From positions 1-52,132 of the forward strand of contig JAUNHC010000038.1 of the NCBI GenBank assembly GCA_030524175.1: DNA of 52,132 bases, written 5' to 3'. Under the pieces are notes generated by a model. It did no database searches and was not told the DNA's origin. It saw only the letters and a list, made by a program, of their open reading frames with translations. The translations under genes were made by a program, and so were the position numbers. The DNA is from Eubacteriales bacterium. Lineage in GTDB: Bacteria > Bacillota > Clostridia > Lachnospirales > Lachnospiraceae. This document shows, one piece after another, positions 3,881-42,451 of this stretch. Each line of letters opens with the position of its first letter. Position 1 is the first letter of the stretch.

Positions 3881-5698
3881 TCAAGTGGACTTGCCCATTT
3901 TGTTTTGAAAGATATTCAGATCATTTAAGACAGACAAGGTGATTTCTGAAGCCTGCTTCCCGTCGGCATTGGCATTAGAGCGTATATTGGTGGCGAATAT
4001 ATACGTAGTATCTATACTTTCTACATAGCCAACAAACCATCCGTTCATGTTCCGGCCGTCTATACACCCTGTTCCTGTTTTCCCGTAAAGAGAGTCTGAG
4101 CCAGAAGCGGAAAGAAAGATGGCATCTTTGACTGCCTGTACGTTTTCAAGAGCAAAGGCAAAATTATTTTGGTACAGGTCAGTTAATAGTTTCACTTGCT
4201 CCACAGGAGAAATTTTCAGAGCCGATTCCATCCAGTAAGATGACAGATCATCGTTTATATTTTCGTTGCCATATCCGATTTCCTTGATATAGTCAGAAAT
4301 AATACCAGTACCAAGCTGCTCATCAAGATGCTGAAAATACCAGTTTACAGAGGCCGGCATGGCAGTCTGCAAGGTCTGATCTCCATTCCATAATTCAATT
4401 GGAAAGGTTTCTCCGTTCCATTCCATGAATGTATTATCAGGGGTAATGACACCTTCCTCCAGTCCGAACAGGGCGTCATATATTTTGTAAGTAGAGTCCG
4501 GTGCCACTCTCAGGAGTGCATGCTCCTCATCATAAATTTTCCATGAATCCTTTTCTGTATCATATAAAACAAAGCTGCCTTCGTATTCTCTGAAATAAGA
4601 GGACAGATCTATATTTGTAATTTCCTCGGCAGAAGAATCCCACTGGTAGTGGAGATTATCTGCTGCGTATGTAGAGATAAAAGGAGCAAGTCCTATGAGA
4701 AGAATCGCTGTCAGGATAAAAATGGTGATGCTTTTTAGTCTTTTCATCAAGGATGGTTTCTCATAGGAGGCGATATTGATAATCCTTCGTTTCATCTGTT
4801 TCATGCTTCCTCCAAGGCCGGCGGAAAATGGGAAAGGAGTAAAGGATACCTTTTCTGCAAAATTAATCAGCGTATTTCCATAATCTTCATAAGCATTTTC
4901 GTCAAGCATATTCAGAACGGAAGTGTCGCAGGCAACTTCTCTGTCATTGCGCATTTCTCTCAGAGAGTACCACACGAGGGGATTGAACCAGTAAATAATT
5001 CCTGCCAGGTTCATAAGACAGCTGGCAAAGGGATCTTTATGCTTGTAGTGCTGTAGTTCGTGCAGCAGCATGTATTTCATCTCCGATTCTTTGTGATCGG
5101 AGATTAAGTGGATTGGCAGATAAATGCGTGGTTTCAGAAGTCCAACTATGATGGGGGATTTCAAAAATACTGTGCTGTAAACTTGTATTTCTCTTACAAT
5201 ACCAATCTCTTTCAGACATTGCTCATATAATCTGCGGACGTTAGGATTTTGAACGGGGAGTGCAGATTGTTTAAGATTATGCAGCCGCAAATAGGACTTG
5301 ATCACTAGCAAAATCATTGCCAGAATTCCTGCTAACCATATTCCTGCTAAAAGATATCCGGTAACACCAGGTGCTCTGCTGTTTACAGAAAGTGTAAAAT
5401 CATTTATCCAGTTTGTATTTCCGGTTAGAGTTTCTACAGTTGTTTCACTCATAACAGCTCCCGCATCTGACAGAGAAAACCCACCCAAGGACTGGAACCA
5501 CAGTAATATTTGAGGTAATCCGGTGAAGTGGAAGGGCAGAAATGGAACTGCCAGCAATCCAAGCAGGACAAACCACAGATTATAGTGCAGCCGGCCGGAC
5601 AGATTATTTTTAAATAGCCGTTTGACTATTAAGAGAAGTCCGATGATACCGCAGATAAAAATATTACATATCAAAAAGCATATCATAAAATTTCCCAT
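3881..5698 (-). CDS. blaR1: BlaR1-type beta-lactam sensor/signal transducer metallopeptidase
   Basis: This integral membrane receptor senses beta-lactams and starts relief of BlaI repression. About four membrane segments surround an M56 peptidase domain with the zinc motif HELQH (213-217) followed by KHKD. A further acidic ligand lies in NDREVACD (near 252). After the last membrane segment (about 323-340) comes an extracellular penicillin-binding sensor domain with STYK (Ser402), SVN (450-452) and KTG (540-542). The length of 605 aa matches BlaR1/MecR1 (about 585-600). The start ATG lies one base after the end of blaI, so the two genes are co-transcribed and probably translationally coupled. 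In the known family, acylation of the active-site serine triggers the zinc protease. All residues needed for that are present here. Confidence 0.93.
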   Translation of the reverse strand: MGNFMICFLICNIFICGIIGLLLIVKRLFKNNLSGRLHYNLWFVLLGLLAVPFLPFHFTGLPQILLWFQSLGGFSLSDAGAVMSETTVETLTGNTNWINDFTLSVNSRAPGVTGYLLAGIWLAGILAMILLVIKSYLRLHNLKQSALPVQNPNVRRLYEQCLKEIGIVREIQVYSTVFLKSPIIVGLLKPRIYLPIHLISDHKESEMKYMLLHELQHYKHKDPFASCLMNLAGIIYWFNPLVWYSLREMRNDREVACDTSVLNMLDENAYEDYGNTLINFAEKVSFTPFPFSAGLGGSMKQMKRRIINIASYEKPSLMKRLKSITIFILTAILLIGLAPFISTYAADNLHYQWDSSAEEITNIDLSSYFREYEGSFVLYDTEKDSWKIYDEEHALLRVAPDSTYKIYDALFGLEEGVITPDNTFMEWNGETFPIELWNGDQTLQTAMPASVNWYFQHLDEQLGTGIISDYIKEIGYGNENINDDLSSYWMESALKISPVEQVKLLTDLYQNNFAFALENVQAVKDAIFLSASGSDSLYGKTGTGCIDGRNMNGWFVGYVESIDTTYIFATNIRSNANADGKQASEITLSVLNDLNIFQNKMGKST

Positions 5699-5699
5699 G

Positions 5700-6086
5700 T
5701 CAATTACCGCCCTTCTCTGACCTCTTGGAAAGAAGGGCGCGGAGCGTATCTATTTCTGTTTCAGACAGTCTGTCATTTTCTATATAGGAAGACAGCATAG
5801 CAGTAATGTCTCCATCGTAATAACGGCCCAGAAAGGAATTACTTTCCTGGTTGATATATTCACTTTCCTTTACTAACGGCGTATAAACAAACACCCTGCT
5901 CTGTTTTTCGTAGGCAAGAACACCCTTGGTCACTAAGCGTTTAATTAGAGTTTGTATTGTCTTAGGGCGCCATGAGGTGGTTTGCACTAATCGCTCTGTG
6001 ATCTCATTTGTGTTAATAGGAGCATATTTCCATACAATTTTCATCACTTCAAATTCTGCTTCTGAAATTTGCGGCAGTTTTGTCAT
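5700..6086 (-). CDS. blaI: BlaI/MecI-family winged-helix repressor
   Basis: This 128-aa DNA-binding repressor has the family N-terminus (PQISEAEFEVMKIVW) and a recognition region around TSWRPKTIQTLIKRLVTKG. A dimerisation half follows (residues about 75-125). BlaI repressors bind TTACA-NN-TGTAA-like dyads as dimers and are inactivated after BlaR1 signalling. A perfect dyad lies between this gene and its promoter, and matching sites precede the PBP gene, so it should repress both its own operon and the PBP operon. blaR1 follows one base downstream. Confidence 0.95.
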   Translation of the reverse strand: MTKLPQISEAEFEVMKIVWKYAPINTNEITERLVQTTSWRPKTIQTLIKRLVTKGVLAYEKQSRVFVYTPLVKESEYINQESNSFLGRYYDGDITAMLSSYIENDRLSETEIDTLRALLSKRSEKGGN

Positions 6087-6106
6087 TACAAATCCCTCCT
6101 GATATC

Positions 6107-6118
6107 TTACAAATGTAA
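6107..6118 (-). promoter_or_regulatory. BlaI operator 3, blaI-blaR1 operon
   Basis: TTACAAATGTAA has perfect TTACA and TGTAA arms around AA. It lies between the -10 box of the blaI promoter and the blaI start codon, where bound BlaI would block transcription. A partial second site with an ACATTTGT core (about 6130-6141) falls in the spacer of the same promoter. Confidence 0.85.
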
Positions 6119-6125
6119 TATAAAT

Positions 6126-6153
6126 ATTATAACATTTGTGGTATAAATGTCAA
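6126..6153 (-). promoter_or_regulatory. Sigma-A promoter of blaI-blaR1
   Basis: Read on the minus strand there is a perfect TTGACA -35 box (complement of 6148-6153) and a perfect TATAAT -10 box (complement of 6126-6131) with a 16-base spacer. The spacer contains an ACAAATGT half-operator. Operator 3 lies directly downstream. Confidence 0.8.
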
Positions 6154-6306
6154 ATGATTGTCAGTATGACTTTGATGAAAGGAAGTGCTTTTTTATAAAT
6201 ATTAGGCTATAATAAAAGCATCCGATTTAAGCAAATAAGTCCCGCACAAAAATAAAGAGTGGATCATAACTCAATTTCACCAAATGAAAGGTGGTGCAGT
6301 TCATCT

Positions 6307-7020
6307 ATGTATGCAATAATACGCCTGGGCGGCGGTAAGTATTATACATCAGCCGTCTTTGCCCATTACAATAACATTAGCGCAGCAGACGATTATGGGA
6401 AATATACGGAAGAGATTTACAGCCGTTTTTATATTGTACTTAATCAGGAGAAAACGGCTTTAATAAAGCAATATGTGTTTGACAGGAAAAATGAATATCT
6501 GGAGCCCTTGATCCTCATAACAGATTACAGTCATGATGATTGGAATATGGATGAGGATTCTGGATTTGGAGAAGTGAATACTGTAAGCAAAGAAGAGATT
6601 CTTTCTATGGCGGAAAATGGAACTGTCCCGGAGAAGTTTCTGGAGATGGACGCTGCCTGCCGTTTTGAAGAATATAATAGTATTTCCACAGAAAAGGATA
6701 TAGAGAATCTAATGTGTGTGTCCGGCGGTTTTCATGACGCATATATACAGGAGCAGAACGAAGAAAACGGAACTTTGAGGATTCTTTTTGAGGGCACTTG
6801 GGGATGTAAGATTGAAATGTTGTTTTCCGGAGAACTTACATATGATACCGCTTCACGCAATCCAATGGAAAGAGATCCCTATTGGTTTGGAGCAACATTG
6901 CTGATCAATAATGGATATATCTGTTTTGCAGATAAAGAAGACGTGAGTGTTGAGGATATTAAAGAAGGCTGCTGCTGGTTTAAGGCCCGAAATCTTATAT
7001 ACCGGGTTATACCGGAATGA
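6307..7020 (+). CDS. Hypothetical protein upstream of mcrBC
   Basis: I do not recognise this protein. From ATG 6307 (AAAGGTGG at 6287-6294) it has 237 aa; a GTG at 6259 would add 16 residues without a ribosome binding site. It is soluble, with no signal or membrane segment. The N-terminal part has LGGGKYY and the C-terminal half contains SGGFHDAYI and CCWFKARNLIYR. It ends 53 bases before the probable mcrB start in the same orientation, so it may be co-transcribed with the restriction genes. It could be an accessory or unrelated cargo protein of the defence locus. Confidence 0.7.
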   Translation: MYAIIRLGGGKYYTSAVFAHYNNISAADDYGKYTEEIYSRFYIVLNQEKTALIKQYVFDRKNEYLEPLILITDYSHDDWNMDEDSGFGEVNTVSKEEILSMAENGTVPEKFLEMDAACRFEEYNSISTEKDIENLMCVSGGFHDAYIQEQNEENGTLRILFEGTWGCKIEMLFSGELTYDTASRNPMERDPYWFGATLLINNGYICFADKEDVSVEDIKEGCCWFKARNLIYRVIPE

Positions 7021-37842: not shown

Positions 37843-38793
37843 ATGATATTAAGCGTCAGCAGAAGAACGGATATACCAAATTATTATTCCGACTGGTTTT
37901 ATAATCGTATAAAGGAAGGGTTTCTATATGTAAGAAATCCAATGAATATCCATCAGATCAGCCGGATCGATTTATCGCCCCAGGTGGTAGACTGTATTGT
38001 ATTCTGGACGAAAAATCCGGAGCCCATGATGGAACGTCTTGAGGAATTGGGGGAGTATGATTACTATTTCCAGTTTACCCTTACCGGGTATGGAAGAGAT
38101 ATAGAACCGGGAATTCCCCGGAAAAGAACTGAGGTAATTGAAACATTCCAGAGATTGTCCGAAAAAACAGGAAAGTCCCGGATCATATGGCGTTATGATC
38201 CTATTTTGTTCAATGACAGATACACGGAAGAATATCACATAAGAGCTTTTGAGGAAATTGCGGGCAGACTGAAAAATTATACAGATAAAGTGGTCATCAG
38301 CTTTATGGATATGTATGTAAATACACAGAATAACGCCGGTATCTTAAAGCCTCAGAAGCTAAACCAGGAACAGACGCTTGCTTTTGCACAAAATATTGCC
38401 GATGCTGCGAGGAAAAACGGAATGTCAGTGGAAACGTGTGCGGAGCAAATAGATTTGAGTCGTGTGGGAATCAGGCACGGCGCATGTATTGACAAGAATC
38501 TCATCGAAAAAATTCTGGGATGCAGATTAAAAATAGGAAAAGATAAAAATCAGCGGGGAGAGTGCGGATGTTTTGAAAGTATTGATGTTGGAACTTATAA
38601 TACTTGCAGAAATGGCTGTAAATATTGTTATGCTGATTTTGACCATAAAACTGCAAAAGAAAATATCCGTTGTTATGATCCCGATTCACCTCTGCTGTGC
38701 CAGACGGTAGGTCCGGGTGATCAAATATCACACAGGAAAGTCAGATCCTTAAAAGACGGACAGATTCATCTTTTTGACTCCAATTTCCCCTGA
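37843..38793 (+). CDS. DUF1848 family protein
   Basis: The 316-aa protein has the family start ILSVSRRTDIPNYYSDWF and a motif DCIVFWTKNPEP. The C-terminal part carries a cysteine cluster in NTCRNGCKYCYAD, a CxxxCxxC pattern that suggests an iron-sulfur cluster. A fold related to radical SAM proteins has been suggested for such sequences, but the function is not known. AGAGGAAAA precedes the start. It appears to be a single-gene unit ended by a hairpin at 38794. Confidence 0.85.
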   Translation: MILSVSRRTDIPNYYSDWFYNRIKEGFLYVRNPMNIHQISRIDLSPQVVDCIVFWTKNPEPMMERLEELGEYDYYFQFTLTGYGRDIEPGIPRKRTEVIETFQRLSEKTGKSRIIWRYDPILFNDRYTEEYHIRAFEEIAGRLKNYTDKVVISFMDMYVNTQNNAGILKPQKLNQEQTLAFAQNIADAARKNGMSVETCAEQIDLSRVGIRHGACIDKNLIEKILGCRLKIGKDKNQRGECGCFESIDVGTYNTCRNGCKYCYADFDHKTAKENIRCYDPDSPLLCQTVGPGDQISHRKVRSLKDGQIHLFDSNFP

Positions 38794-38820
38794 TACAGAA
38801 TACTACAGTGCTATTCTGTA
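38794..38820 (+). terminator. Hairpin after the DUF1848 gene
   Basis: TACAGAAT (38794-38801) pairs with ATTCTGTA (38813-38820) around an 11-base loop, right after the stop codon. No T-run follows, so termination strength is doubtful. Confidence 0.5.
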
Positions 38821-38931
38821 TATTGAGGTGTGCTCAGGCAGATGCTATGATGAAACCATATGAAAACAGAGGGACAGGCAGCAGATCTGTACCGGAATGA
38901 AGCCGGAAAAAATACGGCTAAGGAGGAAATT

Positions 38932-40866
38932 ATGGAATTTAATATAGGATATGCCGAGGCAGATATTACACCGGACAGACCGGCAGAGTTAATAGGATTT
39001 TTAAGGCTGGACAATACTTCAAAAGGTATCCTGCACCCGCTGAAAGCGCAGGTTATGGTTATAAAAACCTTCAGGGAGATGTGTTGTTTGATTGCTATAG
39101 ACAGCTTGGGATTTACCGTTGAGCTGTCTGACCAGCTGCGAAGAAAGGCCGCAGAAACTCTTGGAACAGATCATAAGAAAATTATGATCTGTTTTTCCCA
39201 TACCCATTCTGCCCCTAATGCAGGTAACCATGACGGATATTACGAATTTGTCTGCAAACGTATATTAGGCGCTGTTTCCGAAGCTGCATCAAGACTATTT
39301 CCGGCTAAGGCAGTCTGGGGACTTGCCAGCAGTGAAATTGGTATCAACCGCCGGGGGAATGATGAACTGACCGACAGGCGTATCGGTATTCTCAAAATAG
39401 CAGACAGCATATCTGGGAAGGTGAAGCTTTTATTGCTGCGGGTGACAGCTCATGCAAATGTTCTTACAAGTGACAATTATCTTATATCCTCAGATTATTT
39501 CGGTGTTACCAGGGATTTGCTGAAGGATAAGTATGGATGCGGGGTAATGCTGGTACAAGGTGCCTCAGGGGATGTGCGGCCTAAATATCAGCAGGAAAAT
39601 GCAGAGGTTCTGGAAATTCATTCCAATGAAGAAGAATTCAGGAACTATACAGAGGCAGACAAGGAAAAGTATTTCAGTCAAAGCATGGCAGCGTTGGAAA
39701 AAATGGCTTATGAAATTTACGAATCCGTTAAAGGGGTGCTGGATGATTTAGTTCCCAGATCGGTGGACAAGTTCGGAATGTTTTCTGTGACAAAACGGTT
39801 TGCTGCAGATGTACCCTCTGTGGAAAAAGCATGTAAGATTGCAGAAGAGGCAAAGGCTATGGCGCAGATAGACGGTACGGGCTGGCTGGATGAGGTCAAG
39901 CGTCTCAACCGACAGCATGTCACCCAACAGTTTGCTGACATAGAAATACAGTATCTGGCTGTAAATGACGGCTGCATCTGCGGAATCCCAAATGAAGTGA
40001 TGTGCGGAACTGCACTTGATGTTACGGAGAAATCAGGGAACAGTCTTTTATTGTTTGGCGGCTATACAAACGGCTGCAGCAGTTATCTTCCTACGTCAGA
40101 TGAGTATGATAAGGGAGGATATGAGGTATTATGGTCCAATTTAATATATTATCAATACCATGGCAGGGTAATGCCGTTAAACCGGGAAACAGCGGATGAA
40201 CTGGCAGATGAAGCGGTAAAGAATTGGCTCGACTTTTTCAGGTATCCACGTTCCGGAGACAACCAGACGATTTATCTGAAATATGCAGTCACAAATCCGA
40301 ATATCACAGTGGGCGAGTATACGATGTATAACGATTTTGTCAATGATCCATGCTTATTTGAGAAAAACAACGTTTTATATCACTATCCTGTCAATCACGA
40401 TAAACTTATTATAGGGAAATTCTGTTCCATTGCCTGCGGCGCCCGGTTTCTTTTTAACAGTGCAAACCATTCCATGAGCTCATTGTCCACATATCCTTTT
40501 CCCCTCTTTTTTGAAGAATGGGAGCTTGACAGGAAAGATGTGGCTGCGTCCTGGGATAATAAAGGCAATATTGTTATTGGGAATGATGTATGGATTGGAT
40601 ATGAAGCAGTCATAATGGCCGGCGTCACTATCGGCGACGGCGCTGTCATAGGGGCACGTGCCGTCGTGACAAAAGATGTACCGCCATATACTATTGTGGG
40701 AGGTGTACCAGCCAGGCCAATAAGAAAGCGTTTTTCAGATGATAAGATTTCTTCTCTGCTTGAGATAAAGTGGTGGGACTGGTCAAAGGAGAAAATAAAA
40801 CAAAACGTGGAAGCAATCCAATCCGGATGTATTGAAAAATTAAGATTATCCAATCTCCACGATTGA
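38932..40866 (+). CDS. Fusion of neutral/alkaline ceramidase-like hydrolase and Vat/CatB-type acetyltransferase
   Basis: One uninterrupted frame of 644 aa starting at ATG 38932 behind AAGGAGG. Residues about 1-430 resemble the N-terminal domain of neutral/alkaline ceramidases: [17 protein letters not shown] at the start, [11 protein letters not shown] (zinc-type HTHSAP), [11 protein letters not shown] and [11 protein letters not shown]. There is no signal peptide, unlike secreted ceramidases. From about 435 the protein is a complete hexapeptide xenobiotic acetyltransferase like streptogramin acetyltransferases: [30 protein letters not shown], the catalytic His in [15 protein letters not shown] and a C-terminal DIKWWDW-type end (EIKWWDW here). 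I know of no such fusion with an established role. Amide hydrolysis followed by re-acetylation of the freed amine or hydroxyl is one idea. Confidence 0.85.
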
Positions 40867-40973: not shown

Positions 40974-42023
40974 ATGGAAAATAACGAACCGAAGCATAAA
41001 AGGCGTGTGCGGTACAGTGGGACTCATCCCAAGAGCTATAAAGAAAAATATAAGGAGCTGCAGCCGGAGAAATACCCGGAGACTGTGGCCAAGGTAATTA
41101 CGAAAGGGAGCACCCCTGCAGGTATGCACATTTCTATCTGTGTCAGGGAAATCCTGGATTTTTTGCAGATAAAGCCCGGGCAGAAGGGGCTGGATGCAAC
41201 TCTGGGGTATGGAGGGCATACACAGGAGATGCTGAAATGCCTGGAAGGGAAAGGGCATCTCTATGCCCTGGATGTGGATTCTGTTGAGATCGTTAAGACA
41301 AGGGCACGTCTGGAACGGCTGGGTTATGGTCCTGAGATTTTGACTATCCGGCAGTTGAATTTTGCTAATATTGACAAGGCGGCAGAGGAAGGCGGGCCAT
41401 TCGATTTTGTGCTGGCTGATCTGGGGGTATCGTCTATGCAGATTGACAATCCGGACAGAGGATTTTCTTATAAAAAAGAAGGCCCCCTGGATTTGCGGCT
41501 GGACCCGGCAAAAGGGATATCAGCGGCGGAACGTCTGCGTGATATCACCCGTGAAGAACTGACGGGGATGTTGTTTGAAAATTCTGATGAGCCTTACGCA
41601 GAGGAAATTGCCCGGGCTGTGGTTTCCAGGATAAAAAAAGGTGAGGTTGTTGATACAACCACAAAACTGCGGCAGATCATTGAGGATACCCTGAAGTTTT
41701 TGCCGGCAGATAAGCAGAAGGAGGCTGTGAAAAAATCCTGTCAGAGGACGTTCCAGGCTCTTCGTATTGATGTGAATAATGAGTATGAGGTCCTTTATGA
41801 GTTTATGGAGAAGCTTCCCGATGCCCTTCTTAGCGGAGGCAGGGCAGCAATTCTTACCTTCCATTCCGGTGAGGACCGCATCGTGAAGAAGGCGCTAAAA
41901 CAAATGTACCGGGATGGTGTGTACAGTGAGATTTCCACAGAAGTGATCAGGCCCTCCGAGGAGGAATGCAGGCTGAACAGCCGTGCCCGTTCCACTAAGA
42001 TGCGCTGGGCTGTAAAAGCATAA
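40974..42023 (+). CDS. rsmH: 16S rRNA (cytosine1402-N4)-methyltransferase RsmH
   Basis: The 349-aa SAM-dependent enzyme methylates N4 of C1402 in 16S rRNA. Family motifs are LDATLGYGGHTQEML (SAM binding), FVLADLGVSSMQIDNPDRGFS-type region (seen as DLGVSSMQIDNPDRGFSY), GPLDLRLDP, QRTFQALRIDVNNE and LTFHSGEDR. An unusual basic N-terminal extension (about 45 residues, KHKRRVRYSGTHPKSYKEK) precedes the usual start. The gene is not beside ftsL or mraZ, so it is probably a second, stand-alone RsmH paralogue. GAGAGGAA precedes the chosen ATG; the frame is open further upstream without a good site. Confidence 0.92.
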   Translation: MENNEPKHKRRVRYSGTHPKSYKEKYKELQPEKYPETVAKVITKGSTPAGMHISICVREILDFLQIKPGQKGLDATLGYGGHTQEMLKCLEGKGHLYALDVDSVEIVKTRARLERLGYGPEILTIRQLNFANIDKAAEEGGPFDFVLADLGVSSMQIDNPDRGFSYKKEGPLDLRLDPAKGISAAERLRDITREELTGMLFENSDEPYAEEIARAVVSRIKKGEVVDTTTKLRQIIEDTLKFLPADKQKEAVKKSCQRTFQALRIDVNNEYEVLYEFMEKLPDALLSGGRAAILTFHSGEDRIVKKALKQMYRDGVYSEISTEVIRPSEEECRLNSRARSTKMRWAVKA

Positions 42024-42187: not shown

Positions 42188-42451
42188 ATGAAATATATAA
42201 ACGCAAATGAGATTCTCCCTGATAGTCTGATCCAGGAACTGCAGAAATATGTCCAGGCAGGATATATCTATATTCCGGCTAAAGATCAGCAGCATAAATC
42301 CTGGGGAGAGCTGACAGGCTATCGTAAAGAACTGGAGAAGCGTAATCAGGCAATAAAGACTAAGTACAGAAAGGGATGCTCTGTGGAATCCCTGGCAGAG
42401 CATTATAATCTTTCTTTATCAGCAATAAAAAAAATAATATATGCTTATTGA
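42188..42451 (+). CDS. Small HTH protein, CD3324-like (Mor-activator type)
   Basis: The 87-aa protein starts MKYINANEILPDSLIQELQ and contains VQAGYIYIP, both typical of a small clostridial family known as CD3324-like and related to Mor transcription activators. Its C-terminus CSVESLAEHYNLSLSAIKKI is a helix-turn-helix. It should bind DNA; targets are unknown, though the inverted repeat at 42072 is a candidate. AAGGAGG (42174-42180) sets the start. A clear terminator follows. Confidence 0.85.
   Translation: MKYINANEILPDSLIQELQKYVQAGYIYIPAKDQQHKSWGELTGYRKELEKRNQAIKTKYRKGCSVESLAEHYNLSLSAIKKIIYAY

Follow-up and report, generated by a model that had tools for sequence, protein, structure and literature searches.

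A single gene on the forward strand (38932..40866) of the window, that is, the whole 52,132-nucleotide stretch of DNA from a gut-type bacterium analysed here, encodes in one chain of 644 amino acids (about 72 kDa) a short ceramidase-like zinc hydrolase and a Vat/CatB-type hexapeptide acetyltransferase. In the reading that we prefer, to which we assign a probability of about 0.5, this gene is a natural fusion that arose by deletion where two translationally coupled genes meet, and its product would be a cytosolic module inactivating a small molecule of the gut, with a DNA-binding protein of the CD3324 family probably acting as activator. The evidence for the fusion itself, for the completeness of its two halves and for the genes that accompany their relatives is laid out below, together with the alternatives that have to be weighed.

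Two complete enzyme halves in one frame

The frame is open throughout from 38860 to 40866 on the forward strand and spans 668 amino acids. The ATG at 38932 is its likely start, as an AGGAGG lies 5 bases upstream, and residues are counted from this codon; on that numbering the motif HTHSAP occupies residues 90-95 and NSANH residues 509-513. The N domain (38932..40227) corresponds to residues 1-432, the junction (40228..40242) to residues 433-437 with the sequence LDFFR, and the C domain (40243..40866) to residues 438-644. Within 40150-40420, in-frame ATG, GTG or TTG codons are found at residues 414, 460 and 465 only. Since there is no in-frame start between residues 414 and 460, the acetyltransferase half should arise only within the fusion.

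The N part alone barely exceeds the cut-off of the Pfam family Ceramidase_alk (PF04734), with 34.9 bits against 32.1, and its best stretch covers positions 1-108 of the 509 of the profile. A seven-row profile of the N half retrieves the neutral ceramidases of Pseudomonas aeruginosa (2zws, E 3.6e-10) and human (4wgk, E 4e-4). The structure is confidently predicted over residues 1-435, and the top Foldseek match of this model is again 2zws (E 1e-21), with 15-16% identity over the structural match. The zinc ligands of the Pseudomonas enzyme, which we take to be H97, H204, E411 and Y448, have their counterparts by profile alignment in H90, H174, E355 and Y385, each of which is kept in all 45 relatives compared, these rows having been picked from 78 hydrolase loci. 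More generally, the N half keeps all 64 positions at which these 45 other hydrolases reach a conservation of 95% or more.

The pocket residues of human neutral ceramidase, a His, an Arg and a Tyr in a published account (PMC6952831), are matched by H92, R140 and Y397, the first two present in 45 of the 45 relatives and the third in 43. Fold, zinc ligands and pocket residues are therefore common to the N domain and the neutral ceramidases, and three features set them apart. First, the GDVSPN motif of the ceramidases reads GDVRPK in the fusion, with R216 in the place of the motif serine; in the 45 relatives this position is mostly Ala, Arg or Lys (A 25, R 12, K 5, S 1, I 1, E 1). As the same account describes this serine as assisting the pocket arginine, its loss is compatible with catalysis. 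Second, the Ig-like C-terminal domain is absent, the N domain stopping at about residue 432, where the acetyltransferase follows; most stand-alone hydrolase relatives, a family that occurs mainly in Bacillota, also end near the equivalent of this residue. Third, no signal peptide is visible by eye and in the model a first strand starts as early as residue 4, which agrees with the cytoplasmic location proposed from the sequence-only reading. The designation neutral-ceramidase-like, put forward in that reading, is justified by the fold and by the zinc and pocket residues. To speak of a ceramidase would be too strong, given the lost serine, the missing Ig-like domain and the marginal PF04734 score: the N half is predicted to work like a ceramidase, and its identity as one is a matter of likeness.

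The C half scores 40.2 bits against the Pfam Hexapep cut-off of 27. Residues 438-644 match the NCBIfam models Vat_ABCDEFH (NF000311) and CatB (NF000490) over nearly their whole length, with scores that remain under the respective cut-offs (240.6 bits against 300, and 188.4 against 350). VatA structures are matched at an E-value of about 4e-51, with NSANH aligned to the NGANH of VatA and with His513 as the presumed catalytic residue; the C half thus shares with the Vat and CatB acetyltransferases the architecture of a full-length hexapeptide enzyme carrying the NxANH histidine. Its identity is 49.5% to plasmid vat(A) and 44.8% to catB3, and compared with VatA a loop near residues 468-482 is a few residues longer. 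In a tree of 24 rows it falls inside a clade of 15 rows (support 100/98), apart from vat(A) and catB3, around which the program warned of long branches meeting. To the earlier designation Vat/CatB-type it has to be added that the protein, a complete hexapeptide enzyme with NxANH, stays below both family cut-offs and belongs to a separate clade. Two predicted models are without confidence for most of the C half, the alignment rows of the first being probably misaligned there and the second drawing on four C relatives only, so that the fold of this half rests on sequence identity to solved structures.

By identity, the nearest relatives are a stand-alone protein of a congener (L006, 79.2%) and that of Emergencia timonensis (77.2%). 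Eight other congeneric genomes have stand-alone relatives, at 10 strong places in all, in frames of 209-271 amino acids that are 63-80% identical. Further Vat-like relatives are carried by a Bacteroides fragilis plasmid and by IMG/VR contigs. On the plasmid (L269:3543-4618) the Vat-like gene shares 4 bases with a GNAT gene, and the two are flanked by two IS1187 transposase genes. At one further locus (L179:2977-3606) the Vat-like gene lies in what appears by eye to be a prophage tail region, directly 5' of a tape-measure-like frame, and is possibly phage-borne cargo.

Among the 108 ungapped positions invariant in seven congeneric stand-alone acetyltransferases, a count that excludes one row of 47% identity (L014), 105 are kept in the C half and three are lost, one of them at the junction. 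With both halves complete and conserved in one open frame, a chance read-through can be rejected, as the sequence-only reading had maintained when it described a single frame joining two complete domains.

Relatives of the fusion and origin of the junction

The same domain pair was sought in other genomes, and a second fusion of the hydrolase to a Vat-like domain was not found. Scanning genome contigs with two peptide patterns, and taking the best 80 of 88 relatives, yielded 78 hydrolase loci, none of which has a Vat-like fusion partner. Of their hydrolase frames, 76 reach a stop within the locus, those of L098 and L135 before the match ends, and two run off. No Vat-like match at E 1e-3 is present within the stretch taken from 75 of the 78 loci, which suggests that the two enzymes usually act apart; a close Vat-like gene is found in two (L058 of E. 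timonensis and L122, where it is 2 kb downstream), and a weak match of 29% in L130. Likewise, no fused relative is listed among 64 genomes of the genus, 397 of the family, 391 of the class (E 1e-30), 398 of the phylum (E 1e-20) and 148 of the family of Emergencia (E 1e-30), sets that overlap and that each include the query genome or, for the 148 genomes, Emergencia. Viral contigs scanned for hydrolase relatives gave none, and none of 2729 matching plasmid records contains 80% of the query. Among the matches listed, the literature had nothing about the fusion, about bacterial operons with PF04734 or about CD3324. Matches to the N half are patchy, being present at E 0.001 in 16 of the 397 family genomes, the genome under study included. 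No strong match to it is listed in the other 63 genomes of the genus, so that acquisition of the pair, or of the hydrolase, is probable.

Two other frames of more than 600 amino acids occur among the 78 loci. In an uncultured Lachnospiraceae MAG (L119:3475-5220) a hydrolase frame of 604 amino acids continues into an acetyltransferase of the GNAT type (PF00583, 33.4 bits against a cut-off of 20.7). The hydrolase family is hence met twice in frame with an acetyltransferase, here and in the window, and the two partners have unrelated folds. The joining in L119 could be due to chance, as GNATs are common and the locus is known from one MAG. The other frame (L094:5001-7262, 771 amino acids) extends the hydrolase by some 340 residues, which include a zinc-ribbon-like region scoring under the Pfam cut-off. 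Outside these two, a distant relative (L046, 27%) has a frame of 904 amino acids with another extension, by eye without an acetyltransferase, and the genome of L060 has one of 627 amino acids that contains masked bases.

In E. timonensis the two genes lie side by side in the same order as in the fusion, with the hydrolase at 4998..6335 and the acetyltransferase at 6332..6946 of the locus, so that they overlap by 4 bases. In the N tree the hydrolase of this pair groups as sister to the N half of the window (98/88), and common descent is well supported for this half. In the C tree the acetyltransferase is likewise sister to the C half, with a support of 87/81 that is under the 95/80 mark; for this reason, and because L006 is nearer by identity, common descent of the C half appears only probable. 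Between a shared Trp codon and a shared TATCC there are 15 bases in the window and 41 in Emergencia. The window is thus shorter by a net 26 bases (2 modulo 3), a difference that removes the stop, the ribosome site and the start and puts both frames in register. The fusion therefore most likely originated when a short segment was deleted within a pair of translationally coupled genes, and the occurrence of the two genes side by side in a distant relative and fused here suggests that both enzymes act together. A similar arrangement is known from the streptogramin-resistance pair vgb(A)-vat(A), in which the gene of an inactivating enzyme is directly followed by a Vat-type gene. There the genes overlap by 4 bases by the RGI coordinates, whereas AMRFinder places the vat(A) start 9 bases later, with no overlap; unlike those of the window, they are unfused, and Vgb is a lyase of another fold.

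Two explanations would deprive the fusion of a joint function. The one that survives better, although we hold it to be rather unlikely, is that the fusion is real, recent and near neutral, with the halves keeping separate jobs or with one of them already useless. No other fused copy was found, and at the 10 strong places in 8 congeners the acetyltransferase stands alone, with no strong hydrolase match listed there, as this explanation would expect. Against it, the N half retains every one of its 64 conserved positions and the C half loses just 3 of 108, one at the junction itself, and in relatives a CD3324 gene adjoins both genes. Less likely still is an error of assembly or consensus, whereby two adjacent overlapping genes, as in Emergencia, would have lost 26 bases in the assembly. 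The draft genome comprises 119 contigs that total 5.95 Mb (completeness 90.7%, contamination 2.67%), the window being one whole contig, and no relative was found fused to a Vat-like partner; however, a loss of 26 bases that deletes stop, ribosome site and start and at the same time restores the frame is an unlikely error. The homologues are separate genes throughout what was searched, a pattern that the earlier reading would have taken as a sign of artefact. By itself this does not prove one, because E. timonensis has both genes adjacent and in the same order. As the gene order of the window matches that real pair, a chimeric contig at the junction is also thought unlikely.

The CD3324-family protein and the gene neighbourhood

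A third partner, missed in the sequence-only reading, is a helix-turn-helix protein of the CD3324 family. The window encodes one at 42188..42451 on the forward strand, with 114.3 bits against the NF040785 cut-off of 65; its match to the Mor transcription activator family (PF08765, 21.7 bits, E 2e-4) is under the cut-off of 24.9. CD3324 relatives are present in 24 of the 78 hydrolase loci taken from the best 80 of 88 relatives, and in 21 of the 78 they lie on the same strand 141-431 bases upstream of the hydrolase, measured from match to match; the loci that bear them include close kin, for example those of Lacrimispora. In the genus the family is rare, with 12 copies in 10 of 64 genomes, the own genome included. 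The five congeneric copies most similar to that of the window (56-71%, out of 11), in G015, G006, G002, G008 and G003, have a Vat-like gene at a distance of 161-878 bases. Around the remaining six (38-45%), neither a Vat-like nor a hydrolase match is present in flanks of up to 1.5 kb. CD3324 is also absent from the flanks of four Vat-like loci (L007, L010, L012 and L013) and of L273, a hydrolase relative of 59% identity. Loci in which it stands beside Vat-like and/or ceramidase-like genes are L258-L262 and L178, and L058, L060-L062, L064-L066 and L068-L075. Such proteins may indicate the presence of accessory modification genes or switch them on. In the window itself the CD3324 gene is 1.3 kb downstream of the fusion and behind rsmH, and the case for control is weaker there for this reason.

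The immediate neighbours, both on the forward strand, are a gene for a DUF1848 protein upstream (37843..38793) and one for an RsmH-type 16S rRNA methyltransferase downstream (40974..42023); a neighbourhood conserved with DUF1848 or rsmH was not found among the relatives' loci examined, and most genes downstream of the hydrolase relatives are unrelated. Between DUF1848 and the fusion (38793-38821) there is a ten-base inverted repeat with a nine-base spacer; as a hairpin it was discarded, for the gap folds no better than shuffled sequences (z -0.96). The RsmH type of the window is found at 66-76% identity in 28 other congeners and a second type at 36-38%, G030 having both. In six loci of gut or rumen type (L095, L106, L126, L115, L124 and L132) the hydrolase is followed, by eye, by esterase-like genes, a possible second acylation context.

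A predicted two-step modification module

The best-supported prediction of function is a cytosolic module for the two-step modification of a small molecule, combining zinc-dependent N-acyl hydrolysis with acetyl-CoA-dependent O-acetylation. Proteins of the Vat/CatB family are trimeric, and the chain of about 72 kDa would form a trimer through its left-handed beta-helix domain. In the N domain, one zinc held by H90, H174, E355 and Y385 would activate a bound water for the hydrolysis of an N-acyl amide. In the C domain, His513 would act as the base for the acetylation of a hydroxyl by acetyl-CoA, the acceptor being the same molecule, the product of the hydrolysis or a partner compound. The hydrolase-acetyltransferase pair would belong to a small accessory cassette, often accompanied by a CD3324-family DNA-binding protein that is probably an activator.

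As to its use, the most likely one would be the inactivation of a small molecule met in the gut. Detoxification is probably the role; the patchy occurrence, the mobile surroundings of some C relatives and the kind of enzymes that make up the C family speak for this prediction. A role in lipid or cell-envelope metabolism, with the N half acting on sphingolipid-type N-acyl lipids and the C half acetylating the product, would fit neutral ceramidases as the nearest solved structures of the N half, but is improbable in view of the signal peptide not seen by eye, the replaced motif serine, the lack of any lipid gene among the 10 neighbours scanned and the patchy occurrence in 16 of 397 family genomes, the own one included.

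A more specific and doubtful proposal is that the single chain both hydrolyses the N-acyl amide and O-acetylates the hydroxyl of one and the same N-acyl-amino-alcohol, or else inactivates both components of a synergistic antibiotic in the manner of Vgb and Vat, as part of a CD3324-activated and partly mobile cassette. The N-acyl-2-amino-1,3-diol core is common to ceramide and chloramphenicol, and is thus one that both parent families already recognise.

The fusion ties a short cytoplasmic ceramidase-like hydrolase to an unnamed clade of relatives of drug acetyltransferases, a clade with further members that are plasmid-borne or adjoin transposase genes. With the CD3324 association added, the fusion defines a testable module in which substrate and regulator would be shared. 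If detoxification is its true role, this would represent a resistance-type mechanism in which two chemistries are united in one chain.
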